A program made the translations under genes and the position numbers. This document shows, in pieces, positions 11-17,979 of a stretch of 32,568 bases of DNA; position 1 is the stretch's first letter, and each line of letters opens with the position of its first letter. The DNA is from a virus: IMG/VR virus record IMGVR_UViG_3300007538_000102, positions 1 to 32,568 of that record, one strand, 5' to 3'. The notes beneath the pieces are model-generated. The model saw only the letters and a program-made list of their open reading frames with translations, had not been told where the DNA came from and searched no databases.

Positions 11-274
11 CTATGCTTTGGCGTACTCCCAATCGACAAGGCCTTGGAGTTGGGCCATGCGATAGGCGCCGCGCTCTGACCTGACTTTCCAAAACCGCCC
101 TGTTTTCTGGCAGGTGAGAACGCCTTGCGACCTTGCGGGCTTGCCTTGCTTTTCCAGAATGTCGCAAACCTCTTCCTCATCAATTCCAAGGATGGATGCT
201 ATTTCCTCTGGGGATCTGGTTTCAGCCATGCCGACAATGCGGCCAATAGAGGTTTTCGTTCCTGCGAAAATCAT
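11..274 (-). CDS. Small HTH-like phage protein (unknown function)
   Basis: An 87-residue protein of unknown function. A segment reading ETRSPEEIASILGIDEEEV, roughly residues 18-36, looks like a helix-turn-helix, so DNA binding is possible but unproven. The chosen start is the ATG that overlaps the upstream stop codon as ATGA, because AAGG lies 7 nt before it; another ATG two codons upstream sits almost on that ribosome-binding site. It is the last gene seen in a four-gene leftward operon whose promoter carries a repressor operator, so it is probably silent in a lysogen. No family was recognised. Confidence 0.7.
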   Translation of the reverse strand: MIFAGTKTSIGRIVGMAETRSPEEIASILGIDEEEVCDILEKQGKPARSQGVLTCQKTGRFWKVRSERGAYRMAQLQGLVDWEYAKA

Positions 275-426
275 CGCCATCCCTTGTTCTCCCGAAGTTC
301 CTTACGGCGCAATTCGCAAATGCTTTCCGCTGATTTGTCATAACGGCCATCATCTTTTAGTTGCTGGATGAAGCCTGCGAGCTCGCCCTCGTCTATTACT
401 GTGGCCGCCTTGTCTTTGAGTGTCAC
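271..426 (-). CDS. 51-residue ParD-like (ribbon-helix-helix-like) small protein
   Basis: This small gene starts at GTG, which overlaps the stop codon of the upstream membrane-protein gene (GTGA). Longer in-frame reading is possible to about position 531, but that extension runs through the membrane-protein gene in another frame and does not look like protein. The segment ELAGFIQQLKDDGRY followed by SAESICELRRKELRE aligns by eye with ParD-type antitoxins (ELAEFV...GRY.SASEVVREALRLLEE). No ParE-like toxin is next to it, so it may be an orphan antitoxin-like protein or a chance resemblance. It is translationally coupled on both sides. Confidence 0.6.
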   Translation of the reverse strand: MTLKDKAATVIDEGELAGFIQQLKDDGRYDKSAESICELRRKELRENKGWR

Positions 427-551
427 AGGCCGGTCCCAAACGTGTAGAAGATCAATTCCATGACTGCGCGGCCGATCACAATTCCAAGGACTGCTGCGCA
501 GCCTGACAAAATGAGCGTGATGGAAAGCCAAAGTGGCGTGATGCGGTTCAT
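423..551 (-). CDS. 42-residue single-span membrane protein
   Basis: A short gene starting ATG (MNRITPLWLSITLIL...) with one long hydrophobic stretch (LWLSITLILSGCAAVLGIVIG, split here as LWLSITLILS and GCAAVLGIVIG) and a second weaker one near the C-terminus (MELIFYTFG). The Leu-Ser-Gly-Cys sequence resembles a lipobox, so a small lipoprotein is an alternative to a plain inner-membrane protein. Its start overlaps the stop of the upstream zinc-finger gene and its stop overlaps the GTG of the next gene. This tight packing is the main reason for believing it is real. Function unknown; small membrane proteins in this position in temperate phages sometimes act in exclusion, but nothing here proves it. 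Confidence 0.65.
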   Translation of the reverse strand: MNRITPLWLSITLILSGCAAVLGIVIGRAVMELIFYTFGTGL

Positions 552-747: not shown

Positions 748-776
748 GTATTTCCATATTGGAATGCCCGCGTCAA
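748..776 (-). promoter_or_regulatory. Early left promoter (PL-like)
   Basis: Read on the minus strand: TTGACG at 776-771, a 17-nt spacer, then AAATAC at 753-748. The operator palindrome at 752-764 covers the spacer and -10 box. The arrangement is nearly the same as in the right early promoter at 1793-1822; both share TTCCAATATGGAAATA. It should drive the four-gene leftward operon. Confidence 0.6.
752..764. promoter_or_regulatory. Repressor operator OL1 (TTCCATATTGGAA)
   Basis: A 13-bp palindrome lying over the leftward promoter. The same word occurs as its reverse complement at 1806-1818 over the rightward promoter, which is the pattern expected of an immunity repressor or Cro operator. Confidence 0.7.
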
Positions 777-786
777 TATAAAAAGC

Positions 787-799
787 TTCCAAATTGGAA
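787..799. promoter_or_regulatory. Repressor operator (TTCCAAATTGGAA)
   Basis: A perfect 13-bp palindrome 22 bp beyond the OL1 end, in the gap before the rightward gene at 820. A TATTAT at 801-806 and a TATAAG at 812-817 could be -10 boxes for that gene, so this site could control it, or act cooperatively with 752-764. Confidence 0.65.
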
Positions 800-819: not shown

Positions 820-1137
820 GTGCAATGGTTTTCACATCAGAATTATAAGGGTGGTGGTGGCTTGGGTAAGCAGGCTCGATTTGCGCTGGAATATGTTGAA
901 AATTACGTTGGCGGTATGTCCAGCGAGGATAGGCGCGCGTCGATGCCGCGCTGGCTTGAGCGGATTGCCGCTCTAGGGCGGGCACATAATCGGCTGGGTA
1001 TGGGTGAACGCGAAAATGCGCTCCTTGAGCACTTGGTTGAGTGCGTTGTTTGGGGTGAATGCTTTGAGGCCGGTCAAGACTGGGCGCACCGATTGGTTCG
1101 CCGCAGTTCGATCGTTAGGGAATATATAAGAAATTAA
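820..1137 (+). CDS. Unknown 105-residue protein in the immunity region
   Basis: A protein with no family recognised; it looks like a small helical cytosolic protein (central segment RWLERIAALGRAHNRLG). The start is uncertain: GTG at 820 is the longest, but it has no clear ribosome-binding site, and a TTG 15 codons further (before GKQARF) follows a purine-rich stretch. It runs alone between the leftward operon and the repressor gene, and its last codon overlaps the repressor stop tail to tail by 4 bp. The operator palindrome at 787-799 lies just upstream, suggesting control by the repressor or expression in the lysogen. Confidence 0.6.
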   Translation: MQWFSHQNYKGGGGLGKQARFALEYVENYVGGMSSEDRRASMPRWLERIAALGRAHNRLGMGERENALLEHLVECVVWGECFEAGQDWAHRLVRRSSIVREYIRN

Positions 1138-1727
1138 ACAATGTTAGCGAGTTCGCGCGGCAAATGCAGCAAAATACGAGAGGCCCATTCCAGCGCAATA
1201 TCGTACTGACTATCGGCCTCTGGGCTGATGGCTAGAAGGTTGTAAAGTCCCGGCTCACTTCCTCCCTTCACCCGCTTTACCCACTTGGCGCCACTTGCTT
1301 CACAGCAAATGCAATTTTTCCCGATTGCATCTTGTGTGACCTTGGGCGATCCACCGGCATAAAAGATCAGATCGCCTTCGTCAAACGTGGGCGTCATCGC
1401 ATTGCCCACAACTTCAATGGCAACGATATTGCCTTCCGGCAATAGGTCTGGGGCTTCAACATAGCGCAGCGTGGCGTCACTGATACACGGCAGGGGCTCT
1501 AAGACCTTGGCACCAGGGCCTATCTGGCCGATTACTGGTATGAGGCGGCGCGGCTCTTCTGGAAGGCGGTAGCCAAAGAAGTGCCGGATGCGGTCTGCCT
1601 CGCTTGATTGCAGCACGCGGTAGCCTGTCAAAACCTTATTCATTTGCACAGACGTAAGGCCAATAGCTTCGGCCAGGGCTGCCTGTGATAAGCCCCGCGC
1701 TTCAAGTTGTGATCTAACCCAATCCAT
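1134..1727 (-). CDS. CI/LexA-like phage repressor with degenerate S24 domain
   Basis: A 197-residue repressor. The N-terminus (residues 8-38, LSQAALAEAIGLTSVQMNKVL) is an XRE-type helix-turn-helix. The C-terminus is an S24/LexA-type domain with a GQIGPGA hinge near residue 67, the dimer core ending DEGDLIFY, and a KWVKRVKGG block carrying the expected lysine near residue 151. The catalytic serine of the usual GDSM motif is replaced: the sequence reads GNAMTP with Ala near residue 110 (codon GCG). If the alignment is right it cannot cleave itself in the SOS manner. The start is the ATG 8 nt after GGAGG; upstream GTG and ATG codons overlap or crowd that site. It lies divergent to the Cro-like gene with operators between. 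Confidence 0.88.
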   Translation of the reverse strand: MDWVRSQLEARGLSQAALAEAIGLTSVQMNKVLTGYRVLQSSEADRIRHFFGYRLPEEPRRLIPVIGQIGPGAKVLEPLPCISDATLRYVEAPDLLPEGNIVAIEVVGNAMTPTFDEGDLIFYAGGSPKVTQDAIGKNCICCEASGAKWVKRVKGGSEPGLYNLLAISPEADSQYDIALEWASRILLHLPRELANIV

Positions 1728-1747
1728 TTTCATAACCTCCACAATAA

Positions 1748-1776
1748 ATTCTATTTTGGCATGTCACCATTGCTAT
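1748..1776 (-). promoter_or_regulatory. Repressor maintenance promoter (PRM-like)
   Basis: On the minus strand TAGAAT at 1753-1748 can serve as a -10 box, with a poor -35 (ATAGCA) at 1776-1771 and a 17-nt spacer. Imperfect operators at 1749-1761 and 1771-1783 overlap both elements. A weak -35 beside operators is what a repressor-activated or autoregulated promoter looks like; this is inference. Confidence 0.45.
1749..1761. promoter_or_regulatory. Imperfect operator OR3-like
   Basis: TTCTATTTTGGCA matches the operator palindrome TTCCATATTGGAA at 10 of 13 positions and covers the -10 box of the repressor promoter, the position a Cro-preferred site would take. Confidence 0.4.
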
Positions 1777-1783
1777 ATTGGAA
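1771..1783. promoter_or_regulatory. Imperfect operator OR2-like
   Basis: TGCTATATTGGAA matches TTCCATATTGGAA at 11 of 13 positions, with one half-site intact. It lies between the two divergent promoters. Confidence 0.55.
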
Positions 1784-1792
1784 CTAGCCCTC

Positions 1793-1822
1793 TTGACATC
1801 AATGCTTCCAATATGGAAATAG
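1793..1822 (+). promoter_or_regulatory. Early right promoter (PR-like)
   Basis: TTGACA at 1793-1798, an 18-nt spacer, then AAATAG at 1817-1822 (GAAATA at 1816-1821 is an alternative). A perfect operator fills the spacer. Transcription should begin near 1829, that is, at or next to the ATG of the Cro-like gene. Confidence 0.65.
1806..1818. promoter_or_regulatory. Repressor operator OR1 (TTCCAATATGGAA)
   Basis: Exact reverse complement of the 752-764 site, and with it part of a shared 16-base word TTCCAATATGGAAATA. It blocks the right early promoter when bound. Confidence 0.7.
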
Positions 1823-1829
1823 TCTGTGC

Positions 1830-2099
1830 ATGAAAGCAGAACAAATCCCCAAACCCCTCTACGGCCAAGCGGCGCACGTTGTTCGCAAGTGCGGCGGCAT
1901 TCAGTCAACTGCAAGGCTGATTGGGCGTCATCCATCGTGGGTTCTGAAATGGACCTACGCCAAGGAAAGGGGCGGCCGTGGCGGGCTTATCCCCGACGAG
2001 GACCAGCAAATCCTTATGCAAGCTGCGCGGGAGGGCAGGGCTGATCTTTGCCCCTCCGACTTTTTCCCACCAGAAACCCGCAATGAGACTGCGGATTAA
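1830..2099 (+). CDS. Cro-like/YdaS-like helix-turn-helix regulator
   Basis: An 89-residue basic protein with a helix-turn-helix near residues 16-40 (RKCGGIQSTARLIGRHPSWVLKW), a pattern seen in Cro and YdaS-type phage regulators (here written GGIQSTARLIGRHPSW for the core). It stands divergent to the repressor and is the first gene of the rightward early operon, the position of cro. No Shine-Dalgarno precedes the ATG and the predicted transcription start lies at the ATG, so the message is probably leaderless. CII-like activator is an alternative. The assignment is by position and fold pattern, not by a strong family match. Confidence 0.7.
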   Translation: MKAEQIPKPLYGQAAHVVRKCGGIQSTARLIGRHPSWVLKWTYAKERGGRGGLIPDEDQQILMQAAREGRADLCPSDFFPPETRNETAD

Positions 2100-2117: not shown

Positions 2118-2663
2118 ATGGCGAAAGCACAAAGCGAAGGTGAACAAGTTCGGCGGGCATTCGATGGCCCCACGCTGGAACATGACAAGCTGATCGGTCA
2201 CATCGGCGCGCGGATTAGCGAAGAACATTCGCGGTCCTCTGACGGTAGCGAGAGCGCGGCCAAGGTATCGGCGTTCATCGAAGAGACTGGCATGAATAGC
2301 CAAGCGTATTCGTGGATGAAAACCATCATCAAAAAGCTTCCCAAGAAAGACGGGCAGTCAAAGGCGATGGACGTTATTCGCTCGATCGAGGCCGCGTTGC
2401 CGATGATTAAGGCTCATGTGGCCGGTCAATCTACCGCTGAAATGTTCCCCGATGAAGCGCCTGCACCTGTGGATGCGCCAAAGGCTGAACCAAAAGCTGC
2501 GGCCAAAAAAACCAACATTGAGAAGTTCACGCCAAAGGCAAAGGTCGCCAAGGCCGAACCTGATCCTGTTCCGGCTGAAACTCCTGCCGAAAGTGAGCCT
2601 GTTGATCTGGCCGACGATCAGGACGACTTCGATCGCCAACTTGCTGCGGCTTCTGACGAATGA
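2118..2663 (+). CDS. Early phage protein with K/A/P-rich linker and acidic tail
   Basis: A 181-residue protein whose function is not recognised. Residues 1-100 look folded and mostly helical (for example SAFIEETGMNSQAYSWMKTI). Residues 110-160 are a Lys/Ala/Pro-rich linker, and the C-terminus is strongly acidic (DLADDQDDFDRQLAAASDE). A basic linker plus acidic tip is reminiscent of single-strand-binding proteins that recruit partners, but no OB-fold signature was seen. AGAAGG lies 8 nt before the ATG. Its stop overlaps the start of the resolvase gene (ATGA), so both are coupled and a role in replication or recombination is plausible. Confidence 0.75.
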   Translation: MAKAQSEGEQVRRAFDGPTLEHDKLIGHIGARISEEHSRSSDGSESAAKVSAFIEETGMNSQAYSWMKTIIKKLPKKDGQSKAMDVIRSIEAALPMIKAHVAGQSTAEMFPDEAPAPVDAPKAEPKAAAKKTNIEKFTPKAKVAKAEPDPVPAETPAESEPVDLADDQDDFDRQLAAASDE

Positions 2664-3151
2664 AGGTTTTGGCGTTCGACACCGCCACAAAAACGGGGGT
2701 CTGCTTCGGTGAAGCAGGCTCTCGGCCTAAGCTGTGGTCGGTGGTTCTCGGCAAGGTGGAGTGGCCAGATCGCTTTTCCAAGACCCTCCGCATGACTGCT
2801 CATTACATCGAGCAATTCAAGCCAGACCTGATCGCGGTCGAGGCGTTTGTCGGCGGGCCCAAGGCTAATACATCGCTGGCAGGCCTTGTAGCGTGCGTGC
2901 AGGGCGAGGCTGTGCGTCTTGGTGTGCCTGTGGTCACTTATTACCCTGCCACTATCCGCAAGCACTTCCTCGGCGGTGTGAGCCGGTCAAACAAGACCCC
3001 TATCAAGTCACAAGTGTTTGCGCGGTGCCGGATGCTGGGCTGGGACGTGCGCGACACTGACGCGGCCGATGCCGGGGCGCTGTGGGATTATACCTGCTCC
3101 ATGCACAGTAAGGACCACCAGATGACGAGCGTGGGCGGGCTGTTCCATTGA
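2660..3151 (+). CDS. RuvC-like Holliday junction resolvase
   Basis: A 163-residue nuclease of the RuvC/RNase-H fold. The expected metal-binding acids are all visible: Asp7 in LAFDTATKTG, Glu61 in LIAVEAF, and Asp134 and Asp137 in TDAADAGALWDY, at spacings close to E. coli RuvC. Phage versions cut branched DNA, clearing replication and recombination intermediates before packaging. The length is normal for the family. It overlaps its upstream neighbour by ATGA, and its stop TGA overlaps the TTG start of a hidden downstream gene. Early operon context fits a replication/recombination role. Confidence 0.85.
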   Translation: MKVLAFDTATKTGVCFGEAGSRPKLWSVVLGKVEWPDRFSKTLRMTAHYIEQFKPDLIAVEAFVGGPKANTSLAGLVACVQGEAVRLGVPVVTYYPATIRKHFLGGVSRSNKTPIKSQVFARCRMLGWDVRDTDAADAGALWDYTCSMHSKDHQMTSVGGLFH

Positions 3152-4889: not shown

Positions 4890-6280
4890 GCAATGGTCAC
4901 TTCAACATCGAGGCGGAACAACAGTTGCTCGGCGCTATCCTGTGCGACAATTCGGTTTTCGATCTGGTTTCCGATCTGATCGAAGAGGATCACTTCTATG
5001 ACCCCCTTCATGCTCGGATATTTGGCATCTGCAAGGCGCGCATCGTCAAGCAACACTTGGTTTCGCCGGTATCTCTGAAATACACGCTGGAAGGCGATGA
5101 AGGGTTGGCGCAGGTGGGCGGCCCGAAATACCTTGCCAGAATGGCGGGCTCTGCAATCGGCAAGTCTACGGCCCGCGACTATTCAAAGATCATTGTCGAG
5201 GGTTCCGTGCGGCGCAGGCTTCTTGAGGCGTCCAGCAAGGCATCATTTGACCTTAATGCTGGCAGTGAGGCGGATGAAGTGCGCGCTGGCCTCCTGTCGG
5301 CCCTATACGCGCTGCCAGAGGGGCATAGTGAGCAAAGTTCTGTGTCATTGCTCAAGGCGGTGACAAGGGCGGTCACGCAGGCCAATGAAGCTTATCAAGG
5401 CAACACGTCATTTCTGAAAACCGGTGTTCCGGCGCTGGATGGTGTCATCAAAGGACTTGGGCCTGGTGATGTGATGCTTCTGGGCGGGGCAACCTCGATG
5501 GGGAAAACCTCGCTGGCTCTGGAAATTGCGGGCAACGTGGCAATCAAGCAAAAGCTGCATGTTGGTTTCTGGTCGCTGGAAATGTCGGATGACCAATTGG
5601 CCACGCGGATGCAGTCGGCTTGGTCGCGTGTTCCCTATGCGGCTCTGCGCGATGCTGCTGCGATGGATGAGGCTGATTTTCGCAAGTGGGTCGATGCTGG
5701 TAAAGAGATAAGTTCTGCCCCCATGCGTATCATCCCAAAGCATATTCGTGATATTGCGGCGGGTCATGCGGCGATGCGCCGGGTGAAGCGTGAATTGGGC
5801 GGCAAGCTTGATCTGGCAATTGTGGACTATGCGCAGCTTATCCGCGGCACGGGAAAAAGCCGGTTCGAGCAAATGACAGAGGTTTCCATTGGGCTCAAGA
5901 CGCTGGCCGGAATGCTGGAATGCCCCCTGATTGCGCTGGTGCAGTTGTCCAGAACGATTGGTGAGCGGGATGACAAGCGGCCTCAACTCTCGGACATCAA
6001 AGAAACAGGCCAGTTTGAAAACGATGCGGATCAGGTCGTGTTCTGCCACAGAGAGGGTTATTGGCTGCAAAGGCAAGGGCCAAAGCTGGACAAAAACGGG
6101 CAAATCACCGATGGCGCGCGCACCGATTGGGAAGCTGACGTTGCCGCGTCCAACAATGTGATGGAAATAATCGTGCGAAAAAACCGCCACGGTAGGCTGG
6201 CGGCGGCGCAAGTTGGGTTCCATGACGCAACAAACCGCTTCTGGGATTTGAGCCAGAGCCAAGAAGAAGGAATGTACTGA
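4886..6280 (+). CDS. dnaB: Replicative DNA helicase, DnaB family
   Basis: A 464-residue DnaB-type helicase that unwinds the fork ahead of the polymerase. The N-terminal domain (FNIEAEQQLLGAILCDN...) is followed by the RecA-like ATPase domain: Walker A GATSMGKTS near residues 200-208, FWSLEMS near 229, Walker B LAIVDYAQLI near 310, and the late motifs LVQLSRTIGER and GQFENDADQVVF with the arginine-finger region. Length and order match bacterial and phage DnaB. Overlaps on both sides (ATGA upstream, TGATG downstream) place it firmly in the early operon with the initiator and resolvase. Confidence 0.95.
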   Translation: MSNGHFNIEAEQQLLGAILCDNSVFDLVSDLIEEDHFYDPLHARIFGICKARIVKQHLVSPVSLKYTLEGDEGLAQVGGPKYLARMAGSAIGKSTARDYSKIIVEGSVRRRLLEASSKASFDLNAGSEADEVRAGLLSALYALPEGHSEQSSVSLLKAVTRAVTQANEAYQGNTSFLKTGVPALDGVIKGLGPGDVMLLGGATSMGKTSLALEIAGNVAIKQKLHVGFWSLEMSDDQLATRMQSAWSRVPYAALRDAAAMDEADFRKWVDAGKEISSAPMRIIPKHIRDIAAGHAAMRRVKRELGGKLDLAIVDYAQLIRGTGKSRFEQMTEVSIGLKTLAGMLECPLIALVQLSRTIGERDDKRPQLSDIKETGQFENDADQVVFCHREGYWLQRQGPKLDKNGQITDGARTDWEADVAASNNVMEIIVRKNRHGRLAAAQVGFHDATNRFWDLSQSQEEGMY

Positions 6281-6795
6281 TGGATCAAGCGTTTTTGCGG
6301 GAAGTTCAGTCAAAAGGCTGGTCTATCCAGTCAGTCACAGAAGAGCTTGTTGTTGCGCCTTGCCCAAATTCAGGTTGCAGCGTGCGGGTTAACCTGAAAA
6401 GCGGGGTGGCCATACCGGCTGCCTGCCGCGCTGGTGTCGAGGCGCGCAGTCAGGTTGTAACGGTGTTCGATGATGCGAGGGTGTTCTTGCGATCGAGGCG
6501 GGAAGAGTTGCGCCTCACGATCAGGGACGTGGAAAGCATATCTGGAATGGCCGATGATTTCCTTGCCAAGTTTGAAAAGGAAAAGCCATCCAAGTATCCG
6601 AATGTGCAAACCTTTGTGGAATGGGCGCAGTCGCTTGGTTTCAAAGTTGTGCTAATGCCAGCGGAATTTCCCCCACTGGCATTGCGTGTTATCGCGGAAA
6701 CCCGCCACCTTATTCAGTCACGGGATCAGATGACTGCGCAACATCATGCGAGGCGACAGGCATCCGGCGCGCAATCGTTGAAAGGGTCGCCGTAA
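6280..6795 (+). CDS. HTH-like protein, last gene of the replication operon
   Basis: A 171-residue protein. Residues 1-50 contain a small Cys pair (CPNSGC) and read like a mini beta domain. From about residue 66 an XRE-like helix-turn-helix follows (FLRSRREELRLTIRDVESI, then FEKEKPSKYPNVQTFVEWA), ending in a segment typical of such regulators (LGFKVVLMPAEFPPLALRVI). It may be a late regulator or replication accessory factor. The ATG overlaps the helicase stop (TGATG). The last 29 codons overlap the end of the convergent minus-strand gene by 86 bp, unusual for this compact genome, so the very C-terminus is less certain. Confidence 0.75.
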   Translation: MDQAFLREVQSKGWSIQSVTEELVVAPCPNSGCSVRVNLKSGVAIPAACRAGVEARSQVVTVFDDARVFLRSRREELRLTIRDVESISGMADDFLAKFEKEKPSKYPNVQTFVEWAQSLGFKVVLMPAEFPPLALRVIAETRHLIQSRDQMTAQHHARRQASGAQSLKGSP

Positions 6796-17336: not shown

Positions 17337-17979
17337 GGCCGCGCCTGTGGCCGCAGCGCCGGTGGGTGAAGCTGCACCACAGGCGGAAGCCTTTGACCTA
17401 TCCTTTATCCCCGAAAGCTTTCATGTGGATGGAAAGCCGGACCTTGAGAAATTCAAGGAGCATTACGGCAAGCTGGTCGAACCATCGGTAGCGCCTGACA
17501 AATACGACTATGTTGTGCCGGCCGATATGGATTTTTCCGCACTCGGGCTGCCCGAAGGAATGGCGCTGGATTTCAATCTGGAAGATCCGACCATGCAGCC
17601 GCTTCTTGGTGAACTGTCCGAAACCCTCAAGGGTATTGGCGCACCGGCTGAAATGGGCGGAAAGATTGGCGGCCTTCTCGCCAAATATGAAGCAACAAAA
17701 CTCACCGCAGCAATCGAAGCGCAAAAGCAAGAATTTGCAAAGCTTGGCACGCCCGAGCAAGCAAATCAGCGAATTACTTCGGTTGTTCGCGCAATGGAAA
17801 CCCGTCTTACCGCCGATGAGGCGCAAGCGCTTCAAGCGGCAACCCGCAGCGCACCGGCCATGATGGCTCTCGAAAAGCTTCTTGGCCCCCGCAACTCCAC
17901 CACGCCGACACCACAACCCGAAGAGGCCGCTAATGATGGCGGTCTTTCTTCACGATACCCAACCTCCCGGACAAAGTAA
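17251..17979 (+). CDS. Capsid scaffolding protein
   Basis: A 242-residue acidic, helical protein directly before the capsid gene, the standard place for a scaffold. Residues 20-45 are Ala/Pro-rich (APVAAAPVGEAAPQ). The block LSFIPESFHVDGKPDLEKF resembles the N-terminal 'peste.yk.p' region of many scaffolds, and SVVRAMETRLTADEAQALQ is helical. The end is Pro/Thr-rich. It guides shell assembly and leaves the head afterwards. AGGAGG lies 10 nt before the ATG; the start is within the preceding gene. Confidence 0.8.
   Translation: MNMRNWLNKSKLRWEAPNEGGQGGAPVSEAAPVAAAPVGEAAPQAEAFDLSFIPESFHVDGKPDLEKFKEHYGKLVEPSVAPDKYDYVVPADMDFSALGLPEGMALDFNLEDPTMQPLLGELSETLKGIGAPAEMGGKIGGLLAKYEATKLTAAIEAQKQEFAKLGTPEQANQRITSVVRAMETRLTADEAQALQAATRSAPAMMALEKLLGPRNSTTPTPQPEEAANDGGLSSRYPTSRTK

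Follow-up and report, generated by a model that had tools for sequence, protein, structure and literature searches.

The question raised by this locus is whether a phage repressor with an S24-like fold can still be inactivated by self-cleavage when alanine occupies the position of the catalytic serine. The preliminary description had placed such a repressor in the DNA analysed here (the window: 32,568 nucleotides, positions 1 to 32,568 of IMG/VR record IMGVR_UViG_3300007538_000102), and a complete open reading frame is indeed found there on the minus strand (1134..1742), with a GTG start and further ATG starts at 1733 and 1727. The ATG at 1733 is favoured, and GGAGG was seen by eye just 5' of it; residue numbers used here start from the ATG at 1727. 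The product of 1134..1733 is a CI-like immunity repressor with an HTH part (residues 1-57, approximately) and an S24-fold C-terminal domain (approximately 61-192), 197-202 aa in length depending on the start. The N-terminal part matched Pfam HTH_3 (E 5.9e-5), the C-terminal part gave a sub-threshold match to Peptidase_S24 (E 2.8e-4; 21 bits against a gathering score of 23.3), and the repressor matched phrog_4, transcriptional repressor, with E 3e-11. The AlphaFold2 model, for which 51 sequences served as input, had a mean pLDDT of 92.4 and a pTM of 0.73. When the predicted structure was compared with viral BFVD and PDB, the lambda repressor was the top PDB match (Foldseek, E 1.8e-5), while the BFVD matches were phage repressors from which nothing further was gained. 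VIA-align gave Z scores of 10.8 for LexA of Thermotoga (3k2z), 10.7 for a lambda CI fragment (2hnf), 10.1 for LexA S119A (1jhh) and 9.3 for the C-domain of the phage 186 repressor (2fkd). Pfam, the model and the fold comparison all show an HTH linked to a domain with the S24 fold. A second IMG/VR contig (IMGVR_UViG_3300025647_000085, 41,168 bp; L002/G001), which differs from the window by 2 mismatches over 29.7 kb, carries an identical repressor, and a single-base assembly error is therefore unlikely.

At the column of the catalytic Ser the repressor has the motif V-V-G-N-A-M, with Ala110 encoded by GCG (1398..1400, minus strand), as had been read earlier. The surroundings of the active site had also been described as intact, which is correct for DEGDLIFY and for KWVKRVKGG with the kept general-base lysine Lys151 (1275..1277, minus strand), but not for the hinge or for column 166. 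Relatives have the hinge VGxVGAGA, whereas this repressor has IGQIGPGA, in which Pro71-Gly72 replaces Ala-Gly. In an alignment of the family profile with the solved lambda CI, three positions correspond: the family A-G to A-G in VQAG of CI, the Ser to the serine in GNSM, and the Lys to one K in FKKL. Since the family A-G thereby coincides with the cleavage site of lambda CI, Pro71 (codon CCT, 1515..1517, minus strand) stands at P1 of the scissile bond. According to PMC3121763, a Lys/Ser dyad cleaves the CI proteins of lambda and P22 at an alanyl-glycyl site. The repressor of the window has lost both the nucleophile and the P1 residue, and by sequence and fold it combines an S24-like fold with the lack of a working dyad. 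The change at Ala110 is the same substitution as in the laboratory form LexA S119A, which is uncleavable.

Scans with alignment A2, using two patterns of which one restricted the site to Ser or Ala and the other left it free, found loci in genome_contigs (49) and in viral_contigs (78). Together with eight earlier loci, and with L010-L024 left out, these yielded 133 profile matches corresponding to 106 distinct sequences including this repressor. All 105 other distinct relatives have Ser in the column of Ala110 and all have Lys (105/105), and 102/105 have an A/C-G hinge, the exceptions being L007 (A-R), L072 (G-G) and L132 (T-G). The seven annotated phage and plasmid relatives have Ser and Lys in 7/7 cases and hinge Ala-Gly in 6/7. 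After removal of seven distant rows, the near relatives numbered 98; Ser and Lys are present in every one of them and P1 Ala in 96. The preliminary description had made its interpretation depend on the alignment, which holds by sequence, by the profile against lambda CI and by fold (LexA and lambda CI, Z 10-11). Its claim that self-cleavage cannot inactivate the repressor is supported, in that absence of cleavage is predicted from the sequence, and the interpretation is strengthened because the Ala-to-Pro change at P1 is a second lesion that had been missed. With Lys151 and the fold intact, self-cleavage might be thought to continue by a different nucleophile. This is extremely improbable, as GNAMTPTF contains no Ser and no other Ser adjoins Ala110 in the motif, P1 is Pro, and the motif aligns without gaps to the Ser-bearing repressor of the related phage L221.

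L221 (IMGVR_UViG_3300001594_000054) was among eight related contigs, besides the phage's own, that were found by a search with the helicase gene. Its early region is syntenic and contains relatives of the repressor, of the divergent small gene, of a RuvC-like gene and of other early genes. The two repressors align without gaps (78/194 identical; 35/60 in the HTH part and 43/134 in the rest), and that of L221 keeps Ser (GSSA) and Lys and has the hinge VGRVGAGD. In the tree, this repressor groups with L221 (98/78), and both group with L025 of Pseudogemmobacter faecipullorum (100/99), whose repressor keeps Ala-Gly, Ser and Lys. Because L221 and L025 both retain these residues, the losses of Ser and P1 Ala are most simply placed on the branch of this phage alone. 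Among the remaining helicase relatives, L227 carries the only full-length S24 repressor in the stretch examined, which is distantly related and has Ser, Lys and A-G; the stretches examined in L222, L224 and L228 gave HTH-only matches.

The divergence of this repressor reaches beyond the catalytic sites. It keeps 15 of the 21 columns that are at least 95% conserved and differs at columns 69, 71, 86, 104, 110 and 166, the last being Ala here and Ser in 97/98 near relatives. Its branch is also long (1.34). Such changes could represent drift in a gene no longer under selection, that is, a decaying or non-essential repressor gene in a phage drifting to a virulent or non-inducible state. We consider this distinctly unlikely, given that the frame is intact in two contigs, that the model is confident, that near-perfect operator-like sites are present and that the sister branch leading to L221 is nearly as long (1.26).

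A census without any condition on Ser was also carried out. In 394 Rhodobacteraceae genomes it gave 24 matches in 22 genomes, all of which were read, and a second profile search of 385 alphaproteobacterial genomes had matches in 80, from which 30 loci among the matches listed were taken in. Among these 54 relatives, 41/44 with an intact dyad have the A/C-G hinge, as opposed to 0/10 with a broken dyad (Fisher 1.2e-8); after clustering at 60% identity (39 clusters) the figures are 28/30 and 0/9 (Fisher 2.6e-7). Both values overstate independence, as the rows are related and clustering removes kinship only in part, and the most distant rows cannot be aligned with confidence. The three intact dyads without A/C-G (L204, L207 and L210) are all G-G. 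Lys is lost in 10/10 of the broken dyads, and Ser also in seven. The repressor of the window belongs with those that have a broken dyad and no A-G, yet it has kept Lys151, which may reflect either an early stage of decay or a structural role of the lysine. Four Rhodobacteraceae sequences (L181, L182, L184 and L185) form a clade (100/99) with an S24-like region, no A-G and no Lys, one of them also lacking Ser; they appear to represent a separate loss of self-cleavage features.

A scan of viral_contigs for G[DN]AM found 12 stretches. L162 proved to be another contig of this phage, L155 and L163 are the same 80-residue frame and unlike a repressor, and L159 had no match to the family profile. The remaining eight variants have Ala at the site and no A/C-G hinge, and Lys is seen only in L153, although the alignments of distant rows are unsure. 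Given these eight other variants, replacement of Ser by Ala recurs among phage regulators with an S24 fold, and this phage is not the only case. The GNAM repressor-like protein of L153 (IMGVR_UViG_3300021978_000181, 2545-3129, minus strand), with Lys kept and the hinge VGAIDGDE without Ala-Gly, seems to be a parallel instance on a branch far from this one.

The region around the repressor gene contains two clusters of operator-like sites. In the right cluster, the palindrome TTCCAATATGGAA (1806..1818, exact match) lies just 3' of TTGACA (1793-1798) and is accompanied by TGCTATATTGGAA (1771..1783) and TTCTATTTTGGCA (1749..1761), each with an 11/13 match. The left cluster consists of TTCCATATTGGAA (752..764), located inside a promoter-like hexamer pair on the minus strand where the promoter scan was at chance level for the region, and of TTCCAAATTGGAA (787..799, exact match). 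The window contains three exact copies of TTCCAWWWTGGAA (752, 787 and 1806), where 0.01 would be expected under a first-order Markov model. Copies matching at 11/13 positions are also found far off, at 17571 and 28800, and when up to three mismatches are allowed the window has about as many copies as chance would give (25 against 22.7 expected), so only near-perfect and clustered sites count. L221 has operator-like sites in the corresponding places, namely TTCCACTTTGGAA (2465), TTCGAATATGGAA (2522) and TTCGAAAATAGAA (1516), of which TTCGAATATGGAA is the counterpart of TTCCAATATGGAA at 1806. Both phages share the putative operator sequence, even though the catalytic site is altered in one and intact in the other. 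At the same threshold no such sites were found in L025. Three apparent sites of another palindrome, of the ATCGAWWTTCGA kind, were noticed by eye at about 4900-4990 of L025, 5' of the repressor.

A small divergent early gene (1830..2099, plus strand) occupies the cro position and shows 54% identity over 68 aa to the L221 gene in the same place. It had no Pfam match, and its position suggests a Cro role. The arrangement is that of lambdoid CI/Cro regions, with the repressor divergent from the early gene and repeated putative operators both between them and at the left promoter. The same HTH and S24 fold, gene place, divergent early gene, operators and Lys are shared with self-cleaving LexA/CI repressors (lambda CI, LexA) and with the alphaproteobacterial phage repressors around Paracoccus phage Pyei1 and L221, from all of which this repressor differs by the changes of Ser to Ala and of P1 Ala to Pro.

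Repressors without a working peptidase are an already known kind. Phage 186 CI is not self-cleaved and is inactivated by Tum; the S24-like fold of its C-domain (2fkd; whole protein 2fjr) is common with this repressor, with 10% identity over the aligned part. In PMC10432266, 210/271 cI proteins are labelled putatively non-autoproteolytic because catalytic residues are missing, and the N15 repressor is reported to be non-proteolytic. The N15 repressor and other cI proteins of linear plasmid-phages resemble the present one in this prediction, but N15 is another phage type and has a known SOS-controlled antirepressor, according to the same source. Gifsy repressors are described in PMC3121763 as uncleaved on induction and inactivated by LexA-controlled antirepressors; at about 136 aa and without the cleavage signature motif, they differ from the longer repressor with an S24 fold studied here, which is not a small repressor of the Gifsy type. 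One clade of Stx phage CI is stated in PMC8951638 to have no S24 domain.

The phage is probably temperate. The longer of its two contigs contains an integrase-like frame of 417 aa (E 1.1e-4, below the Pfam family cut-off), and RecT and a PD-(D/E)XK protein are encoded left of the window. The C-terminal part of this RecT (L011:8175-9086, minus strand) matches Pfam RMF, ribosome modulation factor (1.1e-4, below the cut-off). No tRNAs were found within 40 kb of the longer contig. The relatives of the repressor suggest a host in the Alphaproteobacteria; terminase relatives occur in phages of many hosts, all below 60% identity.

With regard to what could release this phage from lysogeny, an antirepressor under SOS control may inactivate the uncleaved repressor, as happens in Gifsy, N15 or 186, which would preserve the response to DNA damage. 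We hold this as a tentative possibility, for which the precedents in phages with non-cleavable repressors speak (PMC3121763, PMC10432266). The string GTTCN7GTTC was searched for in the window, and one site was found, GTTCTCCCGAAGTTC at 286..300, which lies 5 bases before the start of the open reading frame 11..280 (minus strand). We take this string to be the alphaproteobacterial LexA box; it was not met in the literature looked up for the LexA box. As evidence of SOS control the site was set aside, since a single occurrence is at chance level (0.94 expected), and it lies inside the preceding frame 271..531 (minus strand). Moreover, none of the ten phage proteins scanned with Pfam matched an antirepressor family. 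CtrA-type sites were not found with any of the three strings tried. Alternatively, induction may not involve SOS and may be uncoupled from DNA damage altogether, being brought about by spontaneous switching led by Cro, by a host protease or by some other signal. This is a plausible reading, though one we hold with reserve: the catalytic Ser and the P1 Ala are both gone and no SOS-linked replacement was found, but the absence of such a gene is weak evidence when most early genes have no known function. We regard SOS-independent release and release by an antirepressor as about equally likely.

Two open reading frames deserve mention in this respect. An open reading frame convergent with the repressor (820..1137, plus strand; codon score 3.8, weak coding status) lies beside the left operator-like sites and has relatives only in its own phage in viral_contigs; it is a candidate partner of the repressor. 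A second HTH-like protein is encoded after the helicase gene (6280..6795, plus strand), with relatives in all eight helicase-related contigs at 28-56% identity, those of L227 and L228 giving weak matches to the HTH portion of the repressor profile.

We consider it highly probable that the gene provides a temperate phage with a functional immunity repressor, derived from a self-cleaving, RecA-responsive S24 ancestor, that self-cleavage was lost on this phage's own branch, and that RecA-stimulated cleavage is not the route by which the repressor is inactivated. Under this loss of self-cleavage, the repressor would have kept its HTH, S24 fold and operators while the nucleophile became Ala and P1 became Pro, the fold presumably being retained for dimerisation and cooperativity. 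Loss of Ser alone should stop self-cleavage, and Pro at P1 should also prevent use of the protein as a substrate in trans; with both changes, the repressor would be neither self-cutting nor a good trans substrate. We infer that it binds the operator-like sites, dimerises, is not cleaved and answers to a replacing trigger. Exit from lysogeny would then follow another route than RecA-stimulated repressor cleavage, most likely through binding or titration of the repressor by another protein, or through stochastic loss of repression together with the Cro-like gene. A further proposal, which we rate as rather improbable, is that joint loss of the nucleophile and the scissile residue on this branch made a cleavable S24 repressor permanent, with induction handed to a phage-specific partner (possibly 820..1137 or 6280..6795, both plus strand), which would respond to a signal other than DNA damage, while L221 would still answer DNA damage through near-identical operators.

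No description was found of the changes from Ser to Ala and from P1 Ala to Pro as a pair on one branch beside an intact sister, although a literature search on such wording says little. The known non-cleavable repressors compared here belong to separate lineages, and often they lack an S24 domain. This phage and L221 agree in early gene order and in the kind of operator, and the cleavage apparatus is intact in L221; they form a matched pair for studying how RecA-driven induction is abandoned by a prophage and what takes its place. For S24-fold regulators in metagenomes, the census suggests a sequence rule, in that a broken dyad goes with a lost A/C-G hinge. The present repressor also cautions against reading an S24 annotation as meaning that a prophage is SOS inducible.
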